Assembly: GCF_030817535.1 (NCBI RefSeq)
Contig: NZ_JAUSZL010000002.1
Location: 186,001 to 250,000 of the forward strand
Direction: 5' to 3'
DNA: 64,000 bases
Source: Streptomyces sp. V3I8
GTDB taxonomy: Bacteria > Actinomycetota > Actinomycetes > Streptomycetales > Streptomycetaceae
Part shown: one piece after another, positions 4,400 to 18,099 of the stretch
How the letters are laid out: each line of letters begins with the position of its first letter
How positions within the stretch are numbered: position 1 is the stretch's first letter
Position numbers and translations under genes: made by a program
Notes under the pieces: model-generated
Told to the model about the DNA's origin: nothing
What the model saw: the letters and a program-made list of their open reading frames with translations, nothing else
Databases searched by the model: none

Positions 4400-5695
4400 A
4401 TGAGCGGACCGATCGAGGCACGGGCTCCCCGGCACGGACGAGCAGGAGCCCCGGCCGGCCGGCTGGGCGCCGCGGTCGTCGGCCTGGGCGGAGCGGTGGC
4501 CACCACCGCCGTGGCCGGGGTGGAACTGCTCAAGCTCGGCGTCTGCGGCCAGGACGGGCTGCCGCTCGCGGCCCGCACGGACCTGGTGCCCTACGAGGCG
4601 ATGGTGTTCGGCGGCTGGGACGTGTCGGCCGACGACCTGGCCAAGGCCGCCCATCTGCACCGGGTCCTCGAACCCGCGCAGATCGAGGCCGTCGCCGGTC
4701 AGCTCCAGCGGCTGCGGCCGTGGCCCGCCGTGGCCGACTCCGACTACTGCCGCGCGGTCACCGGCGCCAACGTCGTCGCCATCGACGGCCTGCGGGAACG
4801 GACCGAGCGCATCCGGGAGGACCTGCGGCGTTTCCGGGACGACCAGGACCTGGACGAGGTGGTCGTGGTCAACCTGGCGTCCACCGAGCGGCTGCCCGAC
4901 CCGGCGTCGCCCGCCCTCGCCTCCGTCGAGGCGTTCGAGGCGGCACTGGACACCGGCGACGAGGCGGTCACGCCTTCCATGCTCTACGCCTACGCGGCCC
5001 TGCGGGAGGGCATGGCGTATCTGAACTTCACCCCGAGCTCCGGCGCCGGCGTGCCCGCGCTGACCCTGCTGGCCGAGCGGCAGGGCGTGCCGGTCGCCGG
5101 CAAGGACGGCAAGACCGGGCAGACCATGGTCAAGACGGTGCTCGCCCCCGCCCTGCGCTCGCGGGCCCTGCGCGTGGAGGGCTGGTACTCCACCAACCTG
5201 CTGGGCAACCGCGACGGACAGGCGCTGGAGGACCCCGACTCGCTGGCCAGCAAGACGGCCACCAAGGAGTCGGTGCTGGACGAGGTGCTCGGGTACCCGG
5301 TGGAGGACCACAAGGTCCGCATCGAGTACTACCGGCCGCGCGGCGACGAGAAGGAGGCCTGGGACAACATCGACCTCGTGGGCTTCCTCGGCCGCCGTAT
5401 GCAGATGAAGATCGACTTCCTGTGCCGGGACTCCGTCCTGGCCGCTCCGCTGGTGCTGGACCTGGTCCGGCTGCTGGCCGAGGCGCGCCGCCGCGGTGAG
5501 CGCGGGGTGCAGGAGCAGTTCGGGTACTTCTTCAAGGCCCCCATGACCGCCGACGGCAAGGCCCCGGAGCACGCCCTCCACCGCCAGGAACAGGTCCTGC
5601 TGGACTGGCTCGACGGCACGGACCGGGTCGGCACGGACCAGGTAGGCACGGACCGGGTCGGCGCCGACCCGGTCGGGTGGAGTGGGCGCTCATGA
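4400..5695 (+). CDS. myo-Inositol-1-phosphate synthase family protein
   Basis: Predicted NAD-dependent isomerase/cyclase converting glucose 6-phosphate to inositol 3-phosphate (1L-myo-inositol 1-phosphate), in the cytosol. The N-terminus has the Rossmann signature VVGLGGAVATT near residues 25-35. The family's catalytic Lys region appears as GKDGKTGQTMVK, followed by the STNLLGNRDGQAL segment. The C-terminal half has KEAWDNIDLVGFLGRRM and DSVLAAPLVLDLVRLL, which match the family core. An upstream GGAGAG four bases from the ATG fixes the start. The last ~20 residues are four copies of a five-residue repeat (GTDRV-type) not expected in this family. It is the first gene of a nine-gene operon and overlaps the next by ATGA. 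It is likely a pathway-specific paralog of the housekeeping enzyme, supplying an inositol-phosphate acceptor to the downstream GT4 enzyme. Confidence 0.88.
   Translation: MSGPIEARAPRHGRAGAPAGRLGAAVVGLGGAVATTAVAGVELLKLGVCGQDGLPLAARTDLVPYEAMVFGGWDVSADDLAKAAHLHRVLEPAQIEAVAGQLQRLRPWPAVADSDYCRAVTGANVVAIDGLRERTERIREDLRRFRDDQDLDEVVVVNLASTERLPDPASPALASVEAFEAALDTGDEAVTPSMLYAYAALREGMAYLNFTPSSGAGVPALTLLAERQGVPVAGKDGKTGQTMVKTVLAPALRSRALRVEGWYSTNLLGNRDGQALEDPDSLASKTATKESVLDEVLGYPVEDHKVRIEYYRPRGDEKEAWDNIDLVGFLGRRMQMKIDFLCRDSVLAAPLVLDLVRLLAEARRRGERGVQEQFGYFFKAPMTADGKAPEHALHRQEQVLLDWLDGTDRVGTDQVGTDRVGADPVGWSGRS
5615..5674 (+). repeat. Coding 15-base tandem repeat (4 copies) in the synthase tail
   Basis: Four 15-base units of the form GGCACGGACCGGGTC encode GTDRV, GTDQV, GTDRV and GADPV at the extreme C-terminus of the inositol-phosphate synthase. 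The unit is a multiple of three, so copy-number change would lengthen or shorten the tail without a frameshift. Confidence 0.9.
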
Positions 5696-6675
5696 CGCAG
5701 ACCGCTCCCCGCCCGTCACGGCAGGATGTCGTGGAGGTGCCGCGCGACGCCCTGCGGGCGGCCCTCCCCCTGCTGCGCGAGATCGGTGACCTCAAGCGGG
5801 TCCGTACCGCCGACGGTGGCGGTACGGACGGAGCCGACAGCGGTGCGTCGGCGGCCGAGCGTGCCTTCCGCCGGTCGTGGGCGGAGCTGGCGCACGGCGC
5901 GGATCCCCACGACGTGGCCGTGCGCGCGGGTGCGGCCGCCGTCGCCGGAGCCCGTCTGGCCGGGGTCGACGGACCCGTGCTGCGCAGGTGCGGGCTCACG
6001 GCGGACGAGGCGGCGGCCGTACTGGGGCGCTCGGTCGCACAGCACGCGGACGGCCTGGGTCCGCGGACGTCCGCCCTCCTGAGCGCGGCGCTGCAGAGCC
6101 TGACGCAGGACCCGTGCGGGGCCTGCGAGGTCCCGGTCCCGGAGTTCGCCGCGGCCCTGTGCGCCCAGCCCCGCGCGGGTGCCACCTGCCCGGGGCGGCC
6201 CCGGCTGATGGTGGAACCGCCCGAGAGCCACGGCGACCACTGCTGGGCGGTGGCGGTCTACGGGGTGCTGCTGGCCGAGGCGTTCGGCGCCGAGCCCGGT
6301 GACGTCTTCCTGCTCGGTCTGGGGCACCACCTGCACAACGCCGTGCTGCCCGACGCCGGTTTCAGCGGGGAGGAACTGCTCGGCGGGCACCTGCCCGCCG
6401 TGGTCGCACGCCTGACGCAGGAGCAGCTCGCCGTGCTGCCCGGCCCCCTCGCCGCGCGCCTCGGCTCACTGCTCGCCCTGCGGGAGGCCGCCGAGGCACC
6501 GGTCGCGCGGGCGTTCCACGCCGCCGACGTCCTCGACCGCGTGCTGCAGGTACGCCATCACGCACGGGCCGCCGCCTTCACCGCCGAACAGGCGCTGGAC
6601 GACCTTGACCTGGTACACCCCTGCGCGGTGTCAGGCTTCCACCGGGCCGTGCTGGACGCGGCGGAGGCGGCGTGA
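5692..6675 (+). CDS. HD-domain-like protein with altered metal motif
   Basis: I do not recognise a named family, but the middle of this 327-residue protein reads like an HD-superfamily fold. It has a His in SHGDHCWAVAVYG, a following helix AEAFGAEPGDVFLLGL, then GHHLHNAVLPDAGF where LHN sits where LLHD is usual, and a late Asp in HAADVLDRV. The canonical His-Asp pair is therefore His-Asn, so it may be a weak phosphohydrolase, a diiron oxygenase-like variant (myo-inositol oxygenase is also an HD-fold enzyme), or non-catalytic. A Cys-rich patch (DPCGACEV, ATCPG) lies just before the domain. The ATG at 5692 overlaps the previous stop as ATGA and has GGAG nine bases upstream. It is translationally coupled within the operon. 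The role in the pathway is inference. Confidence 0.75.
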   Translation: MTQTAPRPSRQDVVEVPRDALRAALPLLREIGDLKRVRTADGGGTDGADSGASAAERAFRRSWAELAHGADPHDVAVRAGAAAVAGARLAGVDGPVLRRCGLTADEAAAVLGRSVAQHADGLGPRTSALLSAALQSLTQDPCGACEVPVPEFAAALCAQPRAGATCPGRPRLMVEPPESHGDHCWAVAVYGVLLAEAFGAEPGDVFLLGLGHHLHNAVLPDAGFSGEELLGGHLPAVVARLTQEQLAVLPGPLAARLGSLLALREAAEAPVARAFHAADVLDRVLQVRHHARAAAFTAEQALDDLDLVHPCAVSGFHRAVLDAAEAA

Positions 6676-7889
6676 AGGCCGCGGCGGGGCGTACGGCGGC
6701 CGGGCGCTCGCCGGCGCCGGTCGCGTCCGGACTGATCAGTCCCGGCAACGGGGCCCCGCTGCGTTCCTGCGGTCCCGGGCTCCTCACCGACGGGGAGCGG
6801 CGCTGGCCCGTCGTGGCCGGCATCCCCTGGCTGCGTACCGGTCGCGAGGAGTTGCGCGAACGGGCCGTGCGCGGCATCGAGGAGGGCGATCCGGACAGCG
6901 CCGCGCTCGTCCTGCTGGCCGACGCCGACGACTGGTGGGACGGTCCCGTCCCCTCCCCCGGCACACTGCGCGGCGCGTTGCGGGCGGCCTGTCTGCGCGA
7001 GGCCGTCTCGTTGCTGGGCATGGGCAGGGTCGGCGACTACTTCCTGCACCGGTGGAGCGATCCGACCTGGCTGGCCGTGCTGGCCCTGACGGCGCGCCAC
7101 TCCCCGGGCTCGGGGCCGGCGGCGTTGCCGGTGCTGGAACTGGCGTGCGGCGCAGGCCACTTGCTGCGCCAGCTGGAACTGCGCGGGCACCGGGACCTGA
7201 CCGGCGTCGACGTGGTCTTCGCCAAGCTGTGGCTGGCCCGGCACTTCGTCGCGCCCCGGGCCCGGCTGGTGTGCGCGGACGTCACCGCGCCCTGGCCGCT
7301 GCCGCCGCCGGGCCGCCCGGCCTATGTGGCCTGCCACGACGCGCTGTACTTCCTGCCGCACAAGGCGGAGGTGGTCCGTCGTGCCGTGGAGTACGCCGCC
7401 GGTGGCGGCGTCGTCCTCGGCCACTGCCACAACTCCCTGGTCCCCGGGCCCGTTTCCGGGCTGCCGCTGGACCCGGACGGCTGGCGGTCGCTGCTGCCCG
7501 GGGCCCTGTGCTACGACGACGCGGACCTGACACGCGCCTTGCTGGAGCAGCGCGTGCCGCAGCCGCGCACGGCCGCGGAGCTGGCCGGCAGCGAGGCCGT
7601 CGCCCTGGTCGCCACCCCGCCGCCGCCCGCCGGGTACGGCCCCTTCGCACCCGACCGTCCGGTCCCCGGGCGGCCCCTGCGGCCCAACCCGCTCTACCAC
7701 GACGGGGTGCTGCGCTGGCCGGGCGACCGGTGGCGGGACGAGTACGGGCCGGGCGCCGCCGCCTACCTGCCCGACCGCGTCGACCTCTCCCCCGGCCTGC
7801 TCGCCGACGCGCGGGCCGGACGCCTGACGTGCGAGGTGACCGCTCTCGCCCGGTGTCGGGTGCTGCTGGACCTCCCGGAGCGATGGTGA
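6672..7889 (+). CDS. Class I SAM-dependent methyltransferase domain protein
   Basis: 405-residue cytosolic protein with a class I methyltransferase motif I, VLELACGAGHLLRQL, near residues 157-171, followed by GVDVVFAKLWLAR and a motif II-like CADVTAPWPL. A HDALYFL segment follows where the post-I acidic and motif III strands are expected. Before the domain lies a ~100-residue region with LRSCGPGLLTDGERRWPVVAGIPWLR, a short Trm112/zinc-ribbon-like linker seen in front of some methyltransferases, and after it a ~110-residue Pro-rich region. The GTG start forms a GTGA overlap with the upstream stop. The substrate is unknown; by context it is a sugar, an inositol or an amide/thioamide product of the same operon. 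The gene also overlaps the next one by seven bases. Confidence 0.82.
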   Translation: MKAAAGRTAAGRSPAPVASGLISPGNGAPLRSCGPGLLTDGERRWPVVAGIPWLRTGREELRERAVRGIEEGDPDSAALVLLADADDWWDGPVPSPGTLRGALRAACLREAVSLLGMGRVGDYFLHRWSDPTWLAVLALTARHSPGSGPAALPVLELACGAGHLLRQLELRGHRDLTGVDVVFAKLWLARHFVAPRARLVCADVTAPWPLPPPGRPAYVACHDALYFLPHKAEVVRRAVEYAAGGGVVLGHCHNSLVPGPVSGLPLDPDGWRSLLPGALCYDDADLTRALLEQRVPQPRTAAELAGSEAVALVATPPPPAGYGPFAPDRPVPGRPLRPNPLYHDGVLRWPGDRWRDEYGPGAAAYLPDRVDLSPGLLADARAGRLTCEVTALARCRVLLDLPERW

Positions 7890-9496
7890 ACGCCGACGGG
7901 TGGGCCGCCGCCCCGGCCGAGTGCCGGTGGGCGGTCGCCGGCTGCGGCTGGGTGGCCCGGGACCACTTCCTGCCGGGGCTGCTGGAGGCCGCCGCGAGCA
8001 CCGCGGACGGTGCGCGAGGACCGCACGGCCCGCGCGACGCCACGGGCACGGCGAGCGCGGGCGGCCCCCGTGACGAGAGCGGCTCCAGCGGCAAGGGCGG
8101 TACGGGCGGTTCGCGGCGCGCAGGCGCTCCGTACGGCGTCGTCGACGCGACCGGCGCAGGCAGGATCAGCAGCCGGGGCGGCCCCGCCGGCGGCCCGGAC
8201 GTTCCGCGCGGCACGCGCGACGCGGACCGCGCCGACGGTCCGGGCGGGACACGCGGGGCGGACAGCGCGGGTGACCGGAGCGACACGCACGACACGAGCG
8301 GCGTGAGCGGCGTGAGCGATCGAAGCGGCGTGCGCGGTCGAAGCGGTGTGCGCGGTCGAAGCGGTGTGCGCGACGCGGGCCCTGGGGGCGGGCCGAGCGA
8401 CGCCGGTGGCGCCGGCCGCGCGGACGGCCCCGTACCGCGGCTCGTCGCCGTGACCGACGTCGATCCCGCGGCCGCCGCCCTGCTGGCGGGCCGTGCCCCC
8501 GGCGTCCGGACCTCCGCCGGTCTCGCCGAGCTGCTGGCCGCCTACCGGCCCGACGCCGTGTACGTCGCGACGCCCAACCACGCCCACCGCTCCGCGGTCG
8601 AGGCGGCGGCCGCGGCGGGCGCTGCGGTGCTGTGCGAGAAGCCGCTGGCCGCCGACCTCGGCGAGGCCGAGCGGCTGGTCGCGGCCTGCCGGCGGGCGGG
8701 CACCCTCGCGGCGACCGCCTTCGACCAGCGCTTCCACCCCGCCCACCGGGCCGTGCGCGACGCCGTGGCCTCCGGGGTGCTGGGCACCGTCACCGCGGTG
8801 CGCATCACCTACTGCTGCTGGCTGCCGCCCGCCTGGTCGCCGGACGGCCGGCCGTACGACAACTGGCGTGCCGATCCGGCGCGGGCGGGCGGCGGGGCGG
8901 CGCTCGACCTGGCGCCGCACGGTCTCGACCTGGTGGGTGTGCTGCTCGGCGGGGACGACGTGGCGGAGCTGACCGCGCTGGTGCAGCACCGGGTGCACCC
9001 GTACCCGGTCGACGACGGCGCCGTCCTGGCCGGCCGGACCGGCGGCGGCGTACTGGCCACCCTGCACCTGGCGTACAACACGCCCGACACCCTGCCCCGG
9101 CGGCGCCTCGAAGTGGTCGGCACCCGCGGGCAGCTGACCGCGACGGACACCCTCGGCCAGGACGCCGGGGGAATGCTGCTGCACATCGACGCGCGTACGG
9201 GGGAAGGCGTGCCGGTGCCCTTCGACACCCGTGTGTCCCCGTTCGCCGAGCAGGTGCGGGAGTTCTCCGCGGCCGTGGCCGCGGTGCGGGGCGGCACCCC
9301 GGTGGAGCGTGCCTGGCCGTGGCCGCTGCGGCGCGACCTGGCGCTGCACCGCCTGCTGCTGGAGGCACTGTCCCGCGCGACCCCCTCGTCCGCGCCGACG
9401 ACTGCACCGGAACACGTGCCGGCACGCGCACCGGCACATGTGTCCGCGCCGGCACGGGCACCGGGCCCGTCCACCGTCGAGGAAGGCCGACGATGA
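7883..9496 (+). CDS. Gfo/Idh/MocA-family oxidoreductase with a ~145-residue insertion
   Basis: Predicted NAD(P)-dependent sugar or inositol dehydrogenase. The dinucleotide-binding loop WAVAGCGWVARDHFLPGL is at residues ~15-33. The fold is then broken by about 145 residues of Gly/Arg/Ser/Asp/Ala low-complexity sequence before the second strand, RLVAVTDVD, resumes near residue 186. The hallmark CEKPLA lies near residue 253, and the substrate-domain segments (GGGAALDLAPHGLDLV, YNTPDTLPRRRLEVVGTRG) follow. At 537 residues it is far longer than the usual 330-380. The C-terminus has an Ala/Pro/His-rich tail of about 35 residues. Start: ATG at 7883, inside the last codons of the methyltransferase; the GTG at 7886 is an alternative. 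The following gene overlaps by ATGA. By context the substrate could be inositol, scyllo-inosose or a nucleotide/pseudo-sugar. Confidence 0.88.
   Translation: MVNADGWAAAPAECRWAVAGCGWVARDHFLPGLLEAAASTADGARGPHGPRDATGTASAGGPRDESGSSGKGGTGGSRRAGAPYGVVDATGAGRISSRGGPAGGPDVPRGTRDADRADGPGGTRGADSAGDRSDTHDTSGVSGVSDRSGVRGRSGVRGRSGVRDAGPGGGPSDAGGAGRADGPVPRLVAVTDVDPAAAALLAGRAPGVRTSAGLAELLAAYRPDAVYVATPNHAHRSAVEAAAAAGAAVLCEKPLAADLGEAERLVAACRRAGTLAATAFDQRFHPAHRAVRDAVASGVLGTVTAVRITYCCWLPPAWSPDGRPYDNWRADPARAGGGAALDLAPHGLDLVGVLLGGDDVAELTALVQHRVHPYPVDDGAVLAGRTGGGVLATLHLAYNTPDTLPRRRLEVVGTRGQLTATDTLGQDAGGMLLHIDARTGEGVPVPFDTRVSPFAEQVREFSAAVAAVRGGTPVERAWPWPLRRDLALHRLLLEALSRATPSSAPTTAPEHVPARAPAHVSAPARAPGPSTVEEGRR
8321..8374 (+). 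repeat. Coding 18-base tandem repeat (3 copies) inside the oxidoreductase insertion
   Basis: Three copies of an 18-base unit (CGAAGCGGYGTGCGCGGT type) encode repeated SGVRGR. They lie inside the low-complexity insertion of the Gfo/Idh protein, and a related GGCGTGAGC doublet lies just upstream. The pattern suggests growth of the insertion by slippage. Confidence 0.9.
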
Positions 9497-10320
9497 CCCT
9501 CACCCTGTACGCGTGCGCCAACTGCGGCCACTGGCAACGGTGGTTCGGTCCCCCGCCCGCCTGCCCGGTCTGCTGCGACGTGCGCAACGCGCTGCCGGAG
9601 GAGGGCTGGGACTTCCGTGAGGAGAAGGCGGTCGGGGACCTGCTGGCCGCCGACTGGGACCGGCCCGTGCCTGGCGTCACCGGGTTCCGTACCGTTCCGT
9701 CCTTCGGACTGGGTTCGACGGGCTGGCTGATCGAGGCCGAGGGCGGCAACGTCGCCTGGGAGGCGGCTCCCCACTACTCGCGCGACGCGCTCGCCGAGAT
9801 CGAGCGGCTCGGCGGCATCACCCGGCTCGGCGCGAGCCACGTCCACGGCTACGGAGCGCTGTGGCAGCTGCAACAGCACTTCGAGCCGCCGGTGGTGGCC
9901 GTCGGCGTACAGGACCTGACCTGGACGAAGGCCTTCCGGGTGACCTGGCCGGTGGACGAGCGCCTGGAACTGGCGCCCGGCCTGACCGTCCACCGCACCG
10001 GCGGTCACTTCCCCGGCCACTGCGTGCTGCACGACGCGCGCCGCGGAATCCTGTTCTGCGGCGACACCCTCAAGGTCGACCTGGCAGGCACCGTGCCCCG
10101 CGCCCTGTCCTGCCACAAGGCCTACCACGCCCGGATCCCGCTCTCCCACGACGAGGTGCGCCACTACCGGCGGGTGATCGCCGGCCTGGACTTCGAAGCG
10201 GTGGCCACGCCCTTCGAGTTCGCCGCCCCCGTGACCACCGCGGACGTGCTGCGCCTGTTCGACCACCAGTTGACCGGCCGGCCCAGTACGGCCGCCCTAC
10301 CGTTGGGAGCCGGACGATGA
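9493..10320 (+). CDS. Zinc-ribbon metallo-beta-lactamase-fold protein
   Basis: 275 residues. A rubredoxin/zinc-ribbon-like knuckle, with Cys8-x2-Cys11 and Cys24-x2-Cys27, precedes an MBL-fold domain. The usual HxHxDH motif is replaced by H116-V-H118-G-Y-G. Later metal ligands are plausible at His172/His176 (GHFPGHCVLH) and Asp191 (CGDTLKVD). The fold suggests a hydrolase or, with the rubredoxin-like module, a redox or dioxygenase-type enzyme; the missing Asp/His pair argues against a standard binuclear zinc hydrolase. The ATG at 9493 overlaps the upstream stop, and the downstream YcaO gene overlaps by ATGA, so the three proteins should be co-translated. The substrate is unknown. Confidence 0.85.
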   Translation: MTLTLYACANCGHWQRWFGPPPACPVCCDVRNALPEEGWDFREEKAVGDLLAADWDRPVPGVTGFRTVPSFGLGSTGWLIEAEGGNVAWEAAPHYSRDALAEIERLGGITRLGASHVHGYGALWQLQQHFEPPVVAVGVQDLTWTKAFRVTWPVDERLELAPGLTVHRTGGHFPGHCVLHDARRGILFCGDTLKVDLAGTVPRALSCHKAYHARIPLSHDEVRHYRRVIAGLDFEAVATPFEFAAPVTTADVLRLFDHQLTGRPSTAALPLGAGR

Positions 10321-11840
10321 CCCCCACGACGGACCCCGCCACGGAACATCCGGTGGTGGAGGCCTACCGCGCCGCGCTCGCCCCCGGTGAGCAGCAGGAC
10401 TTCGACATCGGCGCCGCCGACCGCACCGGTCTGCCGGTCGTCGCGGCCGACCACCTGGACGCGGCCGGTGTCCGCAAGGGCGCCTACGGATACGGGGCGG
10501 ATCCCGACCAGGCCCGCGTCGGTGCCTACGGCGAGCTCACCGAGACCGTCCTATTGGCCCGGCACCTGGCCCGCACCGGCCGCCGTCGCGCCTCCTACGC
10601 GGAGCTGGTGCGCGAACGCGGCCGGGACCGGGTCGCCGACCCGGTGGAACTCGTCCTGCCCGCGGGCGCCGACTACGGCCCCGAGCGCCCTCTGGACTGG
10701 GTGCCCGCGCGCCGGCTGCGTACCGGTGAGGAGGTGCTGGTGCCCGCCGAGTCCGCCGCGACCTGCGGTTCCGACCTGCCCGGCGACCCGCCGCCCGGTG
10801 GCCGGCTGACCACGCCGATCACCAACGGGCTGGGCGCCGGCGACACCTTCGAGCGTGCCGTGTCCCACGCGCTCCTGGAGATCCTGCAGCGCGACGGCAA
10901 CGCCACCGCGCACCGGGCCATGGACGAGGGCGTGGTCATCGGCCTGGACGCGGTGACCGATCCGGTCACGCTCTCCCTGCTCGACCGGCTGCGGGACGCC
11001 GGGGTCGAGGTGCTGCCCAAGCTCGCCGCCACCCGCTTCGGTCTGGCCGACGTCCACGTCGTCGGCACGGACGCCCCTGGTGGCCCGGAGGGATCCTCGA
11101 CACCGCTGACGCTCACCGCGTGCGGCGAGGCCGCCCACCCGGACCGGGAGGTCGCGCTGCGCAAGGCGCTCACGGAGTACATGTCCTCCCGGGCGCGCAA
11201 GACCTTCTCGCACGGCCCGTTGACCGAGGTCGCCCGGATCGCCCCGCCCGGCTACCTGGAGCGCGAGATGTCCGTCCCCCTGGCGGCGCAGGAACCCCGG
11301 GCGCTGCGGGAGATGACGGCGTGGGCCGCCATGGACGCCGTACGCCTGCGGAAGCTGCTGGAGCCCACCGTGTTGTCCCGGCGCTCCACCGTGCCGTTCT
11401 CGTCCCTGCCGACCGTGCCGGCCGGCTCGCTGGACGACCCCGCCGCTCTCCTCGACGACCTGCTGCTGCGGCTGGCGGACTTCGACGTCCTGGTGGTCTC
11501 GACGGGCGGGCCCGGGGCCCACGCGGTCAAGGTGCTCGTCCCCGGCATGGAGGTGGAGACGATGTCGTACGCGCGGATCGGGGAACGCGGTGTGCGGCGG
11601 CTGGTCGAGCGCGGACATCCGCTGGCCGGGGTGGGTCCTGTCCCGCACTCCGGGGCACGGCCGGTGCACCTGACCGCCGAGGGCCGCGAACGGCTGGGCG
11701 GCCCGGCCTGGTTCGACGTCGACGCCGCCCGCAGGACGGTGGGGGAGCTGTATCCCCTCTACCGCGAACCGGACCGCCACGCGGTGGCCCGTACGGCGGC
11801 GGGAATGACAGCGGGAACGGGGACGGGGGCCGTGCGATGA
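10317..11840 (+). CDS. YcaO-family ATP-dependent amide-activating protein
   Basis: 507 residues, probably cytosolic. YcaO enzymes phosphorylate amide oxygens to form azolines, thioamides or amidines. The characteristic ATP/Mg-binding acidic motifs are present in order: E73/E76 in GELTETV, E179 and E188 in TFERAVSHALLEILQRD, and E278/E287 in REVALRKALTEYMSSRARK, preceded by the family's ACGEAAHPD. The C-terminus lacks the PxPxP tail of azoline-forming YcaO proteins. There is no neighbouring TfuA, E1-like/ocin-ThiF partner, radical-SAM enzyme or precursor peptide. By position between an MBL-fold protein and a TIM-barrel isomerase, in an inositol/glycosyl operon, it may act on a small molecule or carrier-bound amide rather than a ribosomal peptide; that is inference. 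ATGA overlaps link it to both neighbours. Confidence 0.9.
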   Translation: MTPTTDPATEHPVVEAYRAALAPGEQQDFDIGAADRTGLPVVAADHLDAAGVRKGAYGYGADPDQARVGAYGELTETVLLARHLARTGRRRASYAELVRERGRDRVADPVELVLPAGADYGPERPLDWVPARRLRTGEEVLVPAESAATCGSDLPGDPPPGGRLTTPITNGLGAGDTFERAVSHALLEILQRDGNATAHRAMDEGVVIGLDAVTDPVTLSLLDRLRDAGVEVLPKLAATRFGLADVHVVGTDAPGGPEGSSTPLTLTACGEAAHPDREVALRKALTEYMSSRARKTFSHGPLTEVARIAPPGYLEREMSVPLAAQEPRALREMTAWAAMDAVRLRKLLEPTVLSRRSTVPFSSLPTVPAGSLDDPAALLDDLLLRLADFDVLVVSTGGPGAHAVKVLVPGMEVETMSYARIGERGVRRLVERGHPLAGVGPVPHSGARPVHLTAEGRERLGGPAWFDVDAARRTVGELYPLYREPDRHAVARTAAGMTAGTGTGAVR

Positions 11841-12835
11841 CCACCTCCGCCGACGGCCTGCGCTATGCCTACAACACCAACGGCATGACCTCGCACCGGC
11901 TGGACGACGCGCTGTCGCTGCTGGCCGACACCGGGTACGACGGGGTCGCGCTCACCGTGGACGTGGCCCACCACGACCCGTTCGCACCGGACCTGGTGTC
12001 CCGCACCGCCGCGCTGGCCCGGCGTCTGGAGCGGCTGGGTCTGGGCAGCACCGTGGAGACCGGGGCGCGTTTCCTGCTGGACCCGCGGCGCAAGCACGAG
12101 CCGACCCTGGTCACCGCCGACCCGGCCGGGCGGGCCCGCCGGCTGTCGTTCCTGCGCCGGTGCGTGGACATCGCCGCCGACCTGGGCAGCGAGGCGGTCT
12201 CGTTCTGGGCCGGCGTACCGGCGCCGGGCACCGACACCTCCCCCGGCGCGGCGGCCTGGGACCACCTGGCCGAGGGGGTGCGCGCCGTCGTGGCGTACGC
12301 GGCCGAGCGGGGTGTGCCGGCGGCCTTCGAGCCCGAGCCGGGCATGCTCGTGGAGGACTGCGCGCACTGGTCCCGGCTGGCGGCCCTCGCTCCGGGCCTG
12401 CGGCTGGCCCTGGACACCGGACACTGCCTGGTCACCGGCGAACTGACACCGCATCAGGCGGTACGGCGGCACGCCGGGGACCTCGGTGCGGTCGCCGTGG
12501 AGGACATGCCCCGCGGCCGGCACGAGCACCGCGCGCCGGGCGAGGGCGACATGGATCTGCCCGCCGTCCTGGGCGCGCTGCGCACCGTGCGGTACGGCGG
12601 TCTGGTGAGCCTGGAGCTGTCACGCGACGCGCACCGCGCCGACACGCTGGTGCCCGCCGCGCTGGAGGCGATGCGACACGCCGAGCGCACCTGGGCGGAC
12701 GGCGCCCAGGACACGGTCCCGGGCGCCTCCGCCCCGCCGTCCGGCATGCCCTCCGCATCCGTCCCTCCCATCCCTTCCATTTCTTCCGGCACGTCCGTCC
12801 CGCACGGCGTGGCCGCATCGGAGGTCGCGCGATGA
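11837..12835 (+). CDS. Xylose-isomerase-like TIM-barrel (AP endonuclease 2 fold) protein
   Basis: 332-residue predicted sugar or cyclitol isomerase/epimerase. Hallmarks of the fold are FEPEPGMLVED (metal-binding Glu), LALDTGHC (Asp/His), VEDMPRGRHEHRAPGEGDMDL (the H-x-H...PGxGxxD metal/substrate signature) and SLELSRDAH (final Glu). It opens with LRYAYNTNGMTSHRLDDALSLLADTGYDGV, a normal first strand and helix. The last ~45 residues are a Pro/Ser/Ala-rich tail outside the fold. Family members include inosose isomerases/dehydratases (IolI/IolE-like), which suits an inositol pathway, but substrate assignment is inference. The ATG overlaps the YcaO stop by ATGA and the GT4 start overlaps its own stop. 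Confidence 0.87.
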   Translation: MTTSADGLRYAYNTNGMTSHRLDDALSLLADTGYDGVALTVDVAHHDPFAPDLVSRTAALARRLERLGLGSTVETGARFLLDPRRKHEPTLVTADPAGRARRLSFLRRCVDIAADLGSEAVSFWAGVPAPGTDTSPGAAAWDHLAEGVRAVVAYAAERGVPAAFEPEPGMLVEDCAHWSRLAALAPGLRLALDTGHCLVTGELTPHQAVRRHAGDLGAVAVEDMPRGRHEHRAPGEGDMDLPAVLGALRTVRYGGLVSLELSRDAHRADTLVPAALEAMRHAERTWADGAQDTVPGASAPPSGMPSASVPPIPSISSGTSVPHGVAASEVAR

Positions 12836-14448
12836 GGATCTGCTTCGTCTCACGCCGCTACTGGCCGGCCGTGTCGGGCATGAGCGCCTACGCGGAGAAC
12901 CTGCTGCGGTCCCTGACCGCGGTGGGACACGAGGTCGTCCTGGTGTCCCAGTACCGCGGCGACCGGCAGGGCCGCGCGGTCTACGGCGGCGGCCCTCCCC
13001 CGCCCGAACGGGTCCCCGACGGCGTGCGTCTGGTCGCGATGGAGTCCCTGGGCGAGCAGGCCGTCGGAGCCGGGCTGCCCGCGGACTTCGAGGCCGACGT
13101 GGCCGCGCTGTCCGACACGATCGCCGGCCTGCACGCGAGCGAACCGCTCGACGTGCTGCACGCGCAGTACGGATATCCGCCGGGGCTGGCCGTGCTGGAC
13201 GCCTCCGACCGGCTCGGCGTCCCGGCCGTGGTCTCCATCCAGGGTGGCGACGGCCACTGGGTCGGCACCTGCTGCACCACCCACCGCGCGGCGATCCGCC
13301 GCGTGCTGCGGGACACCCCGGCCCTGCTGATCGGCTCGCCCTCCTTCCGGGCCGAGGTCGCCGCCCGCCACGGGGTGCCGGCCGAGCGCTTCACGGTGGT
13401 CCCCGGAGCCACCGACACCGACCGCTTCCGTCCTGTGCCCGGCCGCCGCCCGGGTACGGCCGGTGATCCGCCGGTGCTGCTGTACCACGGCCGGATCGAC
13501 GTACGGAAGGGCGTGCTGGACCTGCTGGAGGCGGTAGGGCTGCTGCTCGCCGAGGGCAGGCGGCTGCGGCTGCTGGTCTCCGGTGCCGGACCCGACCTGG
13601 ACCGGCTGCGGCGCCGGGCCCGGCGGGCCGACCTGGCCGACGCGGTGGAGGTACTGGGCCCGACCGGCTACCACGACGCCCCCGAGGTCTACCGCAGGGG
13701 CGACGTCTTCGTGAGCCCCACCTGGGCCGAGGGCTTCTCCAACACCATCCTGGAGGCGATGGCGACCGGGCTGCCGGTGGTGTCCACCGACACGGTCGGG
13801 GTGGTGGACTGCGTACGGGACGGCGTCAACGGGCTGCTGGTGCCGCCGCACGATCCGCACGCGCTGGCCGCGGCCGTCGGCCGGATGCTCGACGACACGC
13901 AGTTGCGGCACCGGCTGGCGGAGACCGCCCTGCGGCAGGTGGTGGCCCGGTGGTCCTGGCCGGTGGCCGCCGCGCGCATCGGCGCCGTGTACGAGCAGGT
14001 GTGCGCCGCATGGGCGACGAAGGCCGCCCCGACCGGGACGGCTCCGGCCGACGGACCCGAACCGGCTCCGGTCGGCGGGACAGGACAGGCTCCGGCCGGT
14101 GGAACCGAGCAGGCTCCGGTCCGCGGGACCGGGCAGACTCCGGCCGACCGGACCGGGACGGCTCCGGTTGACGGGACCGGGCGGGCTCGGCACGACGCAA
14201 CCGGGCTGCCCGGTCGCGGGAGCGGCGGGTCCGACGGCCGGGTCGCGGAGCCCGGCGCGCGGCCGGCCGCGGCGCGGATCGCGGTGCCCGCCGTGCACCG
14301 GACCATGGGGGCCGCCGCCACGGTGCGAACCGCGGAACAGGTCGCCGAGCAGGTCTCGGCACAGATCACGGCGGGTGCCGCGGAGCGGACCGCGCCGCCC
14401 CCCGTGGACCTGTCCTGCCGGTTCCGCTACGAGCCCCACCTGCTGTGA
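12832..14448 (+). CDS. GT4-family glycosyltransferase with repeat-rich C-terminal tail
   Basis: 538 residues. A GT-B retaining glycosyltransferase occupies residues 1-395: an N-terminal Rossmann half starting MRICFVSRRYWPAVSGMSAYAE, then LLYHGRIDVRKGVLDLLEA and the E-x7-E donor motif in EGFSNTILEAMATG (E300/E308). The family includes MshA, which joins GlcNAc to inositol 3-phosphate, and this gene shares its operon with an inositol-phosphate synthase and a PIG-L deacetylase. Residues ~404-451 are six 8-residue repeats (APVGGTGQ type), followed by ~85 residues ending in a more ordered VDLSCRFRYEPHLL. The tail is foreign to the family and may be a linker to a short C-terminal motif. It overlaps by ATGA upstream and GTGA downstream. 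Donor and acceptor are inferred only. Confidence 0.9.
   Translation: MRICFVSRRYWPAVSGMSAYAENLLRSLTAVGHEVVLVSQYRGDRQGRAVYGGGPPPPERVPDGVRLVAMESLGEQAVGAGLPADFEADVAALSDTIAGLHASEPLDVLHAQYGYPPGLAVLDASDRLGVPAVVSIQGGDGHWVGTCCTTHRAAIRRVLRDTPALLIGSPSFRAEVAARHGVPAERFTVVPGATDTDRFRPVPGRRPGTAGDPPVLLYHGRIDVRKGVLDLLEAVGLLLAEGRRLRLLVSGAGPDLDRLRRRARRADLADAVEVLGPTGYHDAPEVYRRGDVFVSPTWAEGFSNTILEAMATGLPVVSTDTVGVVDCVRDGVNGLLVPPHDPHALAAAVGRMLDDTQLRHRLAETALRQVVARWSWPVAAARIGAVYEQVCAAWATKAAPTGTAPADGPEPAPVGGTGQAPAGGTEQAPVRGTGQTPADRTGTAPVDGTGRARHDATGLPGRGSGGSDGRVAEPGARPAAARIAVPAVHRTMGAAATVRTAEQVAEQVSAQITAGAAERTAPPPVDLSCRFRYEPHLL
14041..14184 (+). repeat. Coding 24-base tandem repeat (6 copies) in the glycosyltransferase tail
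   Basis: Six imperfect 24-base units encode APADGPEP, APVGGTGQ, APAGGTEQ, APVRGTGQ, TPADRTGT and APVDGTGR. The period is exact and in frame. Confidence 0.9.
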
Positions 14449-15308
14449 ACGCGCCCCCGCCCGCGCCGGACGTCCCCACCGCCGTGGCCGTCAGCCCGCA
14501 CCTGGACGACGCGGTCTTCTCCGCAGGCGGGATCCTGGCGCTGCTGGCCCGGGCCGGCTGGCGGGTGCGGGTCGTCACCTGCTTCACCGCGTCGGTCGAC
14601 GACCCCGGCCCCTTCGCCCTGTCGACCCAGCTCGACAAGGGACTTGCGGCCGACGTCGACTACATGGCGCTGCGCCGCGCCGAGGACCGCGCCGCCCAGC
14701 GGGCACTGGGCACGTCGGCCCCGGTGCACCTGCCGTTGCCCGAGGCCCCGCACCGCGGGTACGGCAGCGCGCCGGAACTGTTCACGCCCCCGCACCCCGA
14801 CGACCCGGCCGGGACGGAGCTGCCGCGGCTGCTGGCCCCCCACCTGGCAGCGGCCGACCTGGTGCTCGCACCCCTGGGGATCGGGGACCACGTCGACCAC
14901 CTGCTCACCGCCCGCGCCGTCGCCGCCACCGTGCCGTACGCGCGGGTCGGCCGGTGGCGCGACGTCCCCTACATCGCCCGGGCGGCGGTCCGGGCGGCGG
15001 ACCGGGACGAGGCCGGAGCGGCGGCCGAGCTGACGGCCGACATCGGTGCCGTCCTGACGGCCAAGACCGCCGCGGCGAGGTGCTACGCCACCCAGCTCGG
15101 CTTCCAGTTCGGCGGCTCCGGACGGACCGGTGAGGTCCTGTCCGCCGTGGCCCGCTCGGAGGCCGCACGCGCGGGGGCGCCGTACGTCCACGGCGAGACG
15201 CTGCAAGCGGGAGAGACCGCCCGACGGCTGCTGCGGGCCGGCCTGTTCGCGGCATGCCGGTACGGCCGGTACGGCCGGTACGAGCGGATGGAGCGGCGTA
15301 TCACGTAG
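14445..15308 (+). CDS. PIG-L-family (MshB-like) N-deacetylase
   Basis: 287-residue zinc-dependent deacetylase of the LmbE/PIG-L family. The metal ligands are visible: P18-H-L-D-D22 in SPHLDDAVFSAGG and H149/H152 in GDHVDH. The family removes N-acetyl groups from GlcNAc conjugates, as MshB does on GlcNAc-inositol, so it logically follows the GT4 enzyme upstream. The GTG start is set by a GTGA overlap with the GT4 stop. This is the last gene of the operon. The C-terminus includes a short RYG repeat (15255-15281). No cysteine ligase or acetyltransferase (MshC/MshD-like) follows, so this is not a complete second mycothiol locus. Confidence 0.9.
   Translation: MNAPPPAPDVPTAVAVSPHLDDAVFSAGGILALLARAGWRVRVVTCFTASVDDPGPFALSTQLDKGLAADVDYMALRRAEDRAAQRALGTSAPVHLPLPEAPHRGYGSAPELFTPPHPDDPAGTELPRLLAPHLAAADLVLAPLGIGDHVDHLLTARAVAATVPYARVGRWRDVPYIARAAVRAADRDEAGAAAELTADIGAVLTAKTAAARCYATQLGFQFGGSGRTGEVLSAVARSEAARAGAPYVHGETLQAGETARRLLRAGLFAACRYGRYGRYERMERRIT
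15255..15281 (+). repeat. Coding 9-base tandem repeat (3 copies) at the deacetylase C-terminus
   Basis: Three 9-base units (GGCCGGTAC type) encode repeated Cys/Gly-Arg-Tyr near the end of the PIG-L protein. Confidence 0.85.
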
Positions 15309-17253: not shown

Positions 17254-18099
17254 ATGGCTGAGCGGCGCATTCGGTCCGGTATGGTCGGCGAGTTGTCGGC
17301 CGAGTTCGCGGGCACGCTGATTCTGATCCTCTTCGGCTGCGGTGTGGTGGCGCAGGTGTCCGCGGGTGGCGCCCTGACGGATCCGGCGGGCGGTCTCGGC
17401 GACCACGACAGCATCTCCTGGGCGTGGGGGCTGGGTGTCACCCTGGGTGTCTACGTGGCGGCGAGGCTGAGCGGCGCCCATCTCAATCCCGCGGTGACCG
17501 TCGCACTCGCCGCGTTCAAGGGATTCCCGTGGCGCAAGGTGGCCCCGTACGCACTGGCCCAGACGGCCGGCGCCTTCGTGGCCGCGCTCCTCGTCCGCTG
17601 GAACTACAGCGAGGCGCTGGCGAAGGCCGACCCGGGGCACACCCTCAAGACCCAGGGCGTGTTCTCCACGCTGCCGGGCAACGGCAACCCCGCTCTCCCG
17701 GTCCACGAGTGGGGCGCCTTCCGCGACCAGGTCATCGGCACGGCCATCCTGCTCCTGCTGATCATGGCCATCACGGACCTGCTGAACACACCGCCGGGCG
17801 CGAACCTGGCGCCGTTCGTCATCGGCCTGGTCGTGGTGGCCATCGGCATGGCCTGGGGGACGAACGCGGGGTACGCCATCAATCCGGCCCGGGACTTCGG
17901 ACCGCGCCTGGCCAGCTTCTTCACCGGTTACGGCGGAGCGTGGCGGGACCAGTACGGGAACCTCTACTTCTGGGTGCCCATCATCGGCCCGCTGATCGGC
18001 GGCCTGCTCGGCGCGGGCCTGTACAAGGTCTTCATCGGCCGCTTCCTGCCCTCGGCGGGGACCGAGCCGCCGGGACGCGTGCCCGCACCGGAGGACTGA
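17254..18099 (+). CDS. glpF: Glycerol uptake facilitator (aquaglyceroporin)
   Basis: 281-residue integral membrane channel that lets glycerol cross the cytoplasmic membrane. It has the two half-helix NPA signatures, HLNPAV at residues 77-81 and NPAR at 210-213, the second followed by Asp214 as in glycerol-conducting members. The hydrophobic segments fit the six-helix MIP fold. The start at 17254 has a GGAGGGTGA ribosome binding site. It is followed 82 bases later by glpK on the same strand, so the pair imports and traps glycerol. Unlike the classic Streptomyces glycerol operon there is no gylR upstream and no glycerol-3-phosphate dehydrogenase downstream in this window. Confidence 0.96.

Follow-up and report, generated by a model that had tools for sequence, protein, structure and literature searches.

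YcaO enzymes have so far been linked almost exclusively to peptide and protein chemistry, and most characterised members act on peptide substrates. Which substrate, then, is served by a YcaO that is encoded together with an inositol-phosphate synthase, a glycosyltransferase and a deacetylase? This question is raised by the window, i.e. the whole analysed stretch of 64,000 nucleotides from Streptomyces sp. V3I8 (C2:186001-250000), in which nine co-directional genes occupy positions 4400–15308 of the + strand in the following order:

4400..5695, + strand: MIPS-type inositol-phosphate synthase (MIPS; PF07994 223.5 bits, PF01658 114.9 bits)
5692..6675, + strand: HD-fold protein, predicted to be phosphatase-like, with the HD motif changed to HH
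6672..7889, + strand: SAM-dependent methyltransferase (MT) with a conserved C-terminal tail and LP..W ending (Methyltransf_25 32.9 bits)
7886..9496, + strand: Gfo/Idh/MocA dehydrogenase (PF22725 89.3 bits, PF01408 69.6 bits)
9493..10320, + strand: MBL-fold protein with an N-terminal zinc ribbon (PF00753 29.3 bits)
10317..11840, + strand: YcaO, predicted to perform ATP-dependent carbonyl/amide activation (PF02624 181.8 bits, cut-off 25.7)
11837..12835, + strand: xylose-isomerase-like TIM barrel (XYL), an IolE/IolI-like putative sugar isomerase or dehydratase (PF01261 117.5 bits)
12832..14448, + strand: GT4 glycosyltransferase with a near-invariant C-terminal tail
14416..14445, + strand: codons of the GT4 C-terminal tail, CRFRYEPHLL (C-x-x-x-x-x-x-H-L-L type ending)
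14445..15308, + strand: PIG-L type de-N-acetylase (PF02585 53.6 bits)

The earlier note had named these nine families and their overlapping junctions. All nine are present in the order stated, and all eight junctions read out from the sequence are four-base stop/start overlaps, either ATGA or GTGA. The MIPS/HD junction is the ATGA at 5692–5695, which places the HD-like start at the ATG at 5692; a GTG at 5677 is the other possible start. Eight of the nine families exceed their Pfam cut-off, the HD-like protein being the exception, slightly under (20.8 bits, cut-off 22.5). The genome encodes a single YcaO.

The check named beforehand, recurrence of the exact gene order in other genomes, gave a positive result across several phyla. 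The identical nine-gene order is found in 36 of the 61 well-covered related loci (Actinomycetota and Pseudomonadota) and thus recurs beyond chance. One shorter contig from Myxococcota likewise carries all nine genes, and reduced or rearranged versions of the set occur in Bacteroidota, Planctomycetota and Armatimonadota. The proteins are co-inherited: pairwise distance-matrix correlations among the nine, compared over 26 of the 36 identical-order loci, range from 0.73 to 0.93. The HD-like gene occurs in seven of 396 sampled genomes (Streptomyces sp. V3I8 counted), each time with an operon-type YcaO 2–4 kb away, and GT4 and HD were found in all five operon genomes tested versus none of the ten YcaO-bearing, operon-free genomes. 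Four records hold plasmid-borne copies of the operon. The set is split in two Actinomycetospora genomes, where XYL-GT4-PIGL remains intact at a separate site and adjoins a homologue of the IclR regulator of the first half (full-length match in A. lemnae, partial matches in both Actinomycetospora genomes). Individual genes can also be missing: MBL is absent from the five Methylobacteriaceae loci examined, MT from five Myxococcota loci, both Hymenobacter loci and loci L062, L068 and L091, and XYL from L042, L068 and L084, so not every pathway step is universal. Among the 122 neighbour proteins, DHQ-synthase and AlkA_N matches number two each, the AlkA genes being at loci other than L045 and L067, and DNA-repair genes are sporadic neighbours of the operon.

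We read the operon as a self-contained unit, exchanged by horizontal transfer, that would make a small pseudodisaccharide of a modified cyclitol and an aminosugar, neither RiPP nor mycothiol, and give this reading an even chance of being correct. The two MIPS Pfam domains and the conserved lysines (K235, K238, K245, K285, K289, K318 and K337, each kept at 95% or more across 54 rows) identify the first enzyme as an inositol-phosphate synthase, most like those of Bacteroides and archaea (7nwr, 1u1i). The best match in the PDB sequence search was 7nwr at 288.7 bits against 56.4 bits for the five-membered-cyclitol-phosphate synthase 6k96, and the ordinary MIPS identity is therefore preferred. The top NCBIfam model for the Gfo/Idh protein is inositol 2-dehydrogenase IolG (88.2 bits, under the cut-off of 355); the protein of Streptomyces sp. 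V3I8 contains a long low-complexity insertion. IolE tops both the PDB and the NCBIfam match lists of the TIM barrel, whose residues E165, D193, H196 and E260 are present in 56 of 56 rows; ‘Art22’ (8z1i) was pursued as a lead for this protein and dropped, as a search of the open-licence literature turned up nothing relevant. Methyltransferase tails with the LP..W ending are conserved in the rows inspected (every third). Membership in a defence system was rejected, the sole PADLOC match being a weak one of the methyltransferase to mad2 (31.3 bits).

The HD-like protein is predicted to adopt an HD-like fold, with a VIA-align match list that covers mainly model residues 31–277 and is compatible with other families too, and several of its relatives carry PF13023. 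Its H...HD...D metal motif is not kept, HH replacing HD in 53 of 53 rows, which makes phosphatase activity uncertain. The MBL protein retains H116, H118, H172, D191 and H208 in 58 of 58 rows and the four cysteines of its zinc ribbon in all 55 rows with letters there (three rows are gapped). The C-terminal LYREP...H of YcaO is kept in the 35 rows of alignment A1. In Hymenobacter setariae both proteins form an in-frame MBL–YcaO fusion of 773 aa. The MBL-fold protein is thus a possible new YcaO partner, and perhaps it helps YcaO to activate a non-peptide carbonyl.

In the strict sense, the ‘mycothiol-like opening’ proposed earlier is unsupported, since the curated mycothiol models exclude MIPS (34.9 bits to the Ino1 model, cut-off 638) and GT4 (96.8 and 97.5 bits to the MshA model TIGR03449, cut-off 462.5), and the GT4 family has no counterpart of a segment of about 15 residues in MshA. 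The broader logic of cyclitol, GT4 and deacetylase found support. The GT4 structure model is closest to BshA and ties with MshA under the 1 Z limit, and the PIG-L metal residues are intact (all 48 rows with letters keep H19/D21/D22, and 50 of 50 keep H149/D151/H152); sequence, however, favours a sucrose-phosphate-synthase-type protein as the top PDB match of GT4 (87.7 bits, versus 78.0 for MshA).

We infer all substrates and the order of steps from family membership. MIPS would convert glucose 6-phosphate into inositol phosphate, which the HD-fold protein may dephosphorylate. Ring oxidation and isomerisation (or dehydration) would fall to Gfo/Idh and the IolE/IolI-like barrel, GT4 would transfer an N-acetylhexosamine from a UDP-sugar, PIG-L would set free the amine of the transferred hexosamine, and the methyltransferase may cap one position. 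YcaO, usually partnered by the zinc-ribbon MBL protein, would consume ATP in activating an amide-type or vinylogous-amide-type C=O; addition of an amine (or ammonia, hydroxyl or sulfide) could give an amidine, azoline, thioamide or enaminone. GalE-type epimerases, the commonest neighbours, are consistent with this route (Epimerase in 10 of the 122 neighbour proteins; GalE cut-off exceeded in both tested). Against it stand the lack of an obvious maker of an amide substrate for YcaO (neither a ligase nor an aminotransferase is present), the HH motif, the best sequence match of GT4, the loci without MBL, MT or XYL, and YcaO relatives that occur without the other eight genes.

A more specific product, to which we attach very little confidence, is a UV-absorbing mycosporine-like aminosugar, made by a pathway that has no relation to the known route and uses YcaO as the carbocycle amine-condensing enzyme. 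Oxidation and dehydration of the MIPS-derived ring would give an enone or dione, whose enol would be methylated; YcaO would phosphorylate the (vinylogous) carbonyl, to which the amine freed by PIG-L would add. Such a product would protect against light and desiccation, in line with the repair genes of the spore-photoproduct-lyase and UDG families that adjoin the operon in several lineages and with the isolation of some hosts from leaves, lichens and air. The UV link is nevertheless only sporadic, since TIGR03886 is found in two of the seven HD-bearing genomes versus 15 of the 389 others; it lies near the operon in one genome (G475) and far from it in Streptomyces sp. V3I8.

Alternative readings were weighed against the pseudodisaccharide unit. 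The shared opening families and the GT4 fold would fit a variant of low-molecular-weight thiol biosynthesis (mycothiol or bacillithiol), which we regard as extremely improbable. The genome has its own MshA (655.5 bits, TIGR03449) at a different site, MshB at C2:3164418 (399.3 bits, TIGR03445) and MshC at C2:7031423, all three above cut-off; as these lie outside the operon and the curated-model scores are too low, a mycothiol operon was rejected. The operon PIG-L is absent from the four genome matches to TIGR03445 at E 0.001, and the missing MshA segment also argues against a thiol variant. Bacillithiol was likewise rejected (BshA 84.3 bits, cut-off 273.7; BshB1 25.9 bits, cut-off 182.5). Moreover, the operon occurs in Pseudomonadota, Myxococcota and Bacteroidota, which to our knowledge do not make mycothiol. 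The absence of a cysteine ligase, TfuA, E1-like partner and precursor from the operon, as noted earlier, was borne out: going by ORF calls and Pfam, none of the nine is a short peptide, an E1-like protein or a cysteine ligase, their Pfam matches include no ocin-ThiF-like partner, and a whole-genome search at E 0.001 gave no TfuA match. With both TfuA and a widely conserved short ORF missing, the operon is not a recognisable RiPP cluster. That a RiPP precursor gene was overlooked or is encoded elsewhere is highly improbable, although characterised YcaOs are mostly peptide-acting. In PMC8442711 (2021), which reports no evidence at that time for non-RiPP YcaO modification in Actinobacteria, only 78 of 231 network-1 precursors had been annotated as genes. 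Against an overlooked precursor, none of the 706 short ORFs flanking the 52 operons compared (up to 2.5 kb away) is common to more than two closely related genera, in a homology-based comparison that a very divergent precursor could escape, and the operon here has no internal gaps.

The target of YcaO could also lie within the operon. The GT4 tail C-R-F-R-x-x-P-H-L-L-COOH, preceded by a linker of variable length, ends 57 of 58 GT4 gene calls (the exception is probably a truncated call), and the thioamidation of ribosomal protein uL16 described in PMC13063428 offers a precedent for a YcaO acting on a protein. We consider this quite unlikely: the last two blocks of the GT4 model of locus L082 average 81 and 67 pLDDT, which would suit a tail that is simply packed against the enzyme, and no tail-bearing ORF was found at the 13 lone-type YcaO loci scanned. 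Decoration of a glycan or lipid, in the cell envelope or secreted, instead of synthesis of a soluble metabolite, is unlikely as well; here GT4, PIG-L and the cyclitol enzymes would act on a polysaccharide or a lipid head group, and YcaO on an N-acyl group there. An MdoH-like GT2 is present in 14 loci (that of the query included), GT61 lies near YcaO in L054 and L081, GalE neighbours occur, and PimA/PimB and sucrose-phosphate-synthase-type folds are in the GT4 structure match list; however, the MdoH-like neighbours are confined to Pseudomonadota, and by Pfam none of the nine proteins is a flippase, a ligase or a membrane protein. Inositol catabolism typically involves Gfo/Idh and IolE-like proteins, and most operon-free YcaO relatives lie beside apparent sugar ABC importers (judged by eye); L053 has a LacI-like regulator and L073 a weak match to a polysaccharide deacetylase. 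These features could point to a unit that salvages or breaks down an aminosugar containing inositol. This is very unlikely, as MIPS and GT4 are biosynthetic rather than degradative and the nine-gene operon has no importer.

For the pseudodisaccharide unit, the same gene order in distant phyla suggests a metabolite of general use, and nine transferable genes would open the question of what else YcaOs activate to direct test. In the open-licence literature, going by titles, the opening lines of abstracts and term counts, no description of the nine-gene set was found. The operon shares a standalone YcaO with streptamidine-type and other YcaO RiPP clusters, and a further likeness is the hydrolase gene of the ami set, but its gene content differs from that set as given in the accessible part of PMC8442711: the precursor, iron and ABC transporters and flavin-dependent dehydrogenase of ami clusters are all absent from the nine genes, and a streptamidine-like cluster was rejected. 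The TfuA-type Corallococcus clusters, as far as described in the part of PMC8120280 at hand, gave no sign of identity with the operon. Compared with mycothiol biosynthesis (MshA–MshD; Ino1), the operon has a MIPS of another subfamily, six extra enzymes and no MshC, and compared with bacillithiol (BshA/BshB) it adds MIPS and YcaO and contains no BshC-type gene. Likeness to the YcaO thioamidation of McrA and uL16 lies in the sole PDB sequence match of YcaO, MJ1094 (6pe3, 57.8 bits), and in the top-scoring NCBIfam model, which is of McrA type (90.4 bits) but misses its cut-off of 365; McrA is a methanogen protein, and the genome is without TfuA. The 6-thioguanine pathway has a YcaO that acts on a small molecule instead of a peptide, and would be alike if the same holds here, with other partners and without purine genes. 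Kasugamycin and fortimicin are inositol-derived aminoglycosides, with amidine-type side groups in kasugamycin and dactimicin. We know of no YcaO in such pathways, and the operon has no aminotransferase, but the logic of MIPS, dehydrogenase, glycosyltransferase and deacetylase is alike.

Nine co-directional genes, all on the forward strand, occupy positions 4400–15308 of the window, which corresponds to 186,001–250,000 of contig NZ_JAUSZL010000002.1 in a 9.3-Mb genome of four contigs. Translation and ORF checks support this gene set, and inspection of the junction sequences revealed a 4-base stop/start overlap at all eight gene junctions. Pfam assigned the proteins to the MIPS, methyltransferase, Gfo/Idh, MBL, YcaO, AP_endonuc_2-type TIM barrel (XYL), GT4 and PIG-L families, with an HD_3 match just under the cut-off for the HD-like protein; the family assignments and overlapping junctions proposed in the earlier note are thereby borne out. 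None of the nine genes reached an NCBIfam equivalog cut-off among the matches listed (for GT4, the best 25 of 38), so that none qualifies as an ordinary member of any named pathway.

The nine genes represent a real, conserved operon family, for which searches of one open-licence library turned up no description. Scanning genomes with an alignment of YcaO sequences yielded 294 encoding stretches among 316, of which the best 80 were retained (loci L014–L093). Their gene content was determined by tblastn with the window proteins and counted for the 61 whose sequence extends at least 6.5 kb upstream and 6 kb downstream. The nine-gene order, whose recurrence the earlier note had left to be checked, is identical in more than half of these.

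Gene content of the 61 well-covered loci
All nine genes in identical order (Actinomycetota and Pseudomonadota): 36
First six genes only: 5
Methyltransferase absent: 2
No detected MIPS: 2
MBL absent: 2
Other rearranged or partial sets: 4
YcaO alone: 10

On a shorter contig, L043 (Corallococcus, Myxococcota) encodes all nine genes and a second YcaO. Hymenobacter (Bacteroidota) lacks the methyltransferase, and two MAGs, one of Isosphaeraceae (Planctomycetota) and one of Armatimonadetes, have reduced or rearranged sets. In the window, the operon is flanked by TauD-like and LamG genes upstream and PPK2 downstream. Across L014–L093, TauD is matched only in L014, the closest relative, and LamG and PPK2 in none, which places these flanks outside the unit. 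Ten further proteins scanned at 17281–53483 include an aquaporin-family protein paired with an FGGY kinase, a solute-binding protein, and GH1, GH3, GH2/AbfB and cellulase-like enzymes; these mark a carbohydrate-use region in which no link to the operon was seen.

Several features of the operon proteins and of their relatives were recorded:
7886–9496 (+), Gfo/Idh with a long internal low-complexity stretch (536 aa vs 305–407 aa in the relatives' whole gene calls listed)
12832–14448 (+), GT4 with a long low-complexity stretch in its linker (538 aa vs mostly 400–440 aa elsewhere)
14416–14445 (+), GT4 C-terminal tail codons, near-invariant in L014–L093
L088 9176–11494, MBL–YcaO fusion in Hymenobacter setariae, one 773-aa ORF
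L040 317–4845, L043 5247–8193 and L044 5202–8177, duplicated or triplicated tandem YcaOs in Myxococcaceae operons (two copies at 79% identity in L043)
L061 11548–12411, bacteriorhodopsin-like gene adjoining a lone YcaO (Modestobacter sp. Leaf380)

After a variable-length linker, GT4 ends in C-R-F-R-x-x-P-H-L-L or a minor variant in 57 of 58 gene calls (model pLDDT means of 81 and 67 for the final two blocks), and the listed methyltransferases share a C-terminal LPxxW. Judged by eye, the lone YcaOs of L049, L052, L053, L059, L073, L078 and L081 adjoin sugar-ABC-importer-like genes, with a weak polysaccharide-deacetylase match also adjoining that of L073.

Co-inheritance shows the nine genes to be one unit. 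Their pairwise protein-distance matrices correlate at 0.73–0.93 (26 of the 36 complete loci), to which common species descent contributes. In an even sample of the phylum (396 genomes), the YcaO clade is present in 10 genomes, including all 7 with the HD-like family, one of which is the window's own; in each of these 7 the two genes lie about 2–4 kb apart on the same contig. Only two families are represented among these genomes, which should therefore not be counted as 7 separate events. GT4 and HD profiles matched all five operon genomes tested vs none of ten lone-YcaO genomes. Two Actinomycetospora genomes carry a split set, with XYL-GT4-PIG-L intact elsewhere in the genome. In A. lemnae, this second half is on the same contig as the first and adjoins a gene homologous to the IclR regulator neighbouring the first half (48% identical over 256 residues); partial matches occur in both genomes.

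All nine genes are also found on plasmid record p546-2 of Roseomonas haemaphysalidis, and eight on those of Hymenobacter volaticus and of two Methylobacterium replicons. Phyla are partly interleaved in the YcaO tree, e.g. Hymenobacter with Rubrobacter (support 96/72, long branch), and the lone-YcaO rows require at least three changes. By operon YcaO, the window's closest relatives are Streptomyces, with 20 named proteins at 75–90% identity among the matches listed. The operon is rare within the sampled genus: 0 of 245 other Streptomyces genomes have a close YcaO match and 11 have distant YcaOs (31–37% identity).

Repair-type genes lie near some operons. UDG-family genes do so in 12 loci, all Pseudomonadota (including plasmid stretches and the query's own). 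Spore-photoproduct-lyase (SPL)-family genes are near it in Roseomonas, Actinomycetospora and Rubrobacter, and in fragmented form in the Isosphaeraceae MAG:
L083 9829–10470, L082 14382–15005 and L029 3981–4646, UDG-superfamily gene adjoining the operon (Roseomonas-type, Methylobacterium-type and Skermanella loci)
L138 14789–16910, L136 5890–6933 (directly 3' of PIG-L), L069 1031–2077 and L042 10176–10695, SPL-family genes near the operon
The genome-wide link between SPL and the operon is weak: SPL occurs in 2 of 7 HD-bearing genomes, just one of which has it close to the operon, vs 15 of the remaining 389.

Our best reading, with about an even chance of being correct, is that the operon makes a cyclitol–aminosugar pseudodisaccharide, with YcaO in a predicted non-peptide role. 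A RiPP cluster is not evident. As the earlier note had it for the operon, TfuA is absent, and no match was found in the whole genome; among 706 short ORFs lying within 2.5 kb of either end of 52 operons and compared by sequence similarity, none recurred more widely than in two genera that are themselves very closely related. Mycothiol was rejected as the product, since MshA (655.5 bits), MshB (399.3) and MshC (675.8) are all encoded elsewhere in the genome, which also carries three MIPS-type genes. In an alignment with this MshA, the operon GT4 family lacks two elements: a ~15-residue segment that follows the acceptor-side region, and the lysine-bearing loop preceding it. In MshA these bind inositol phosphate, so the operon GT4 probably uses an acceptor other than the inositol phosphate of MshA.
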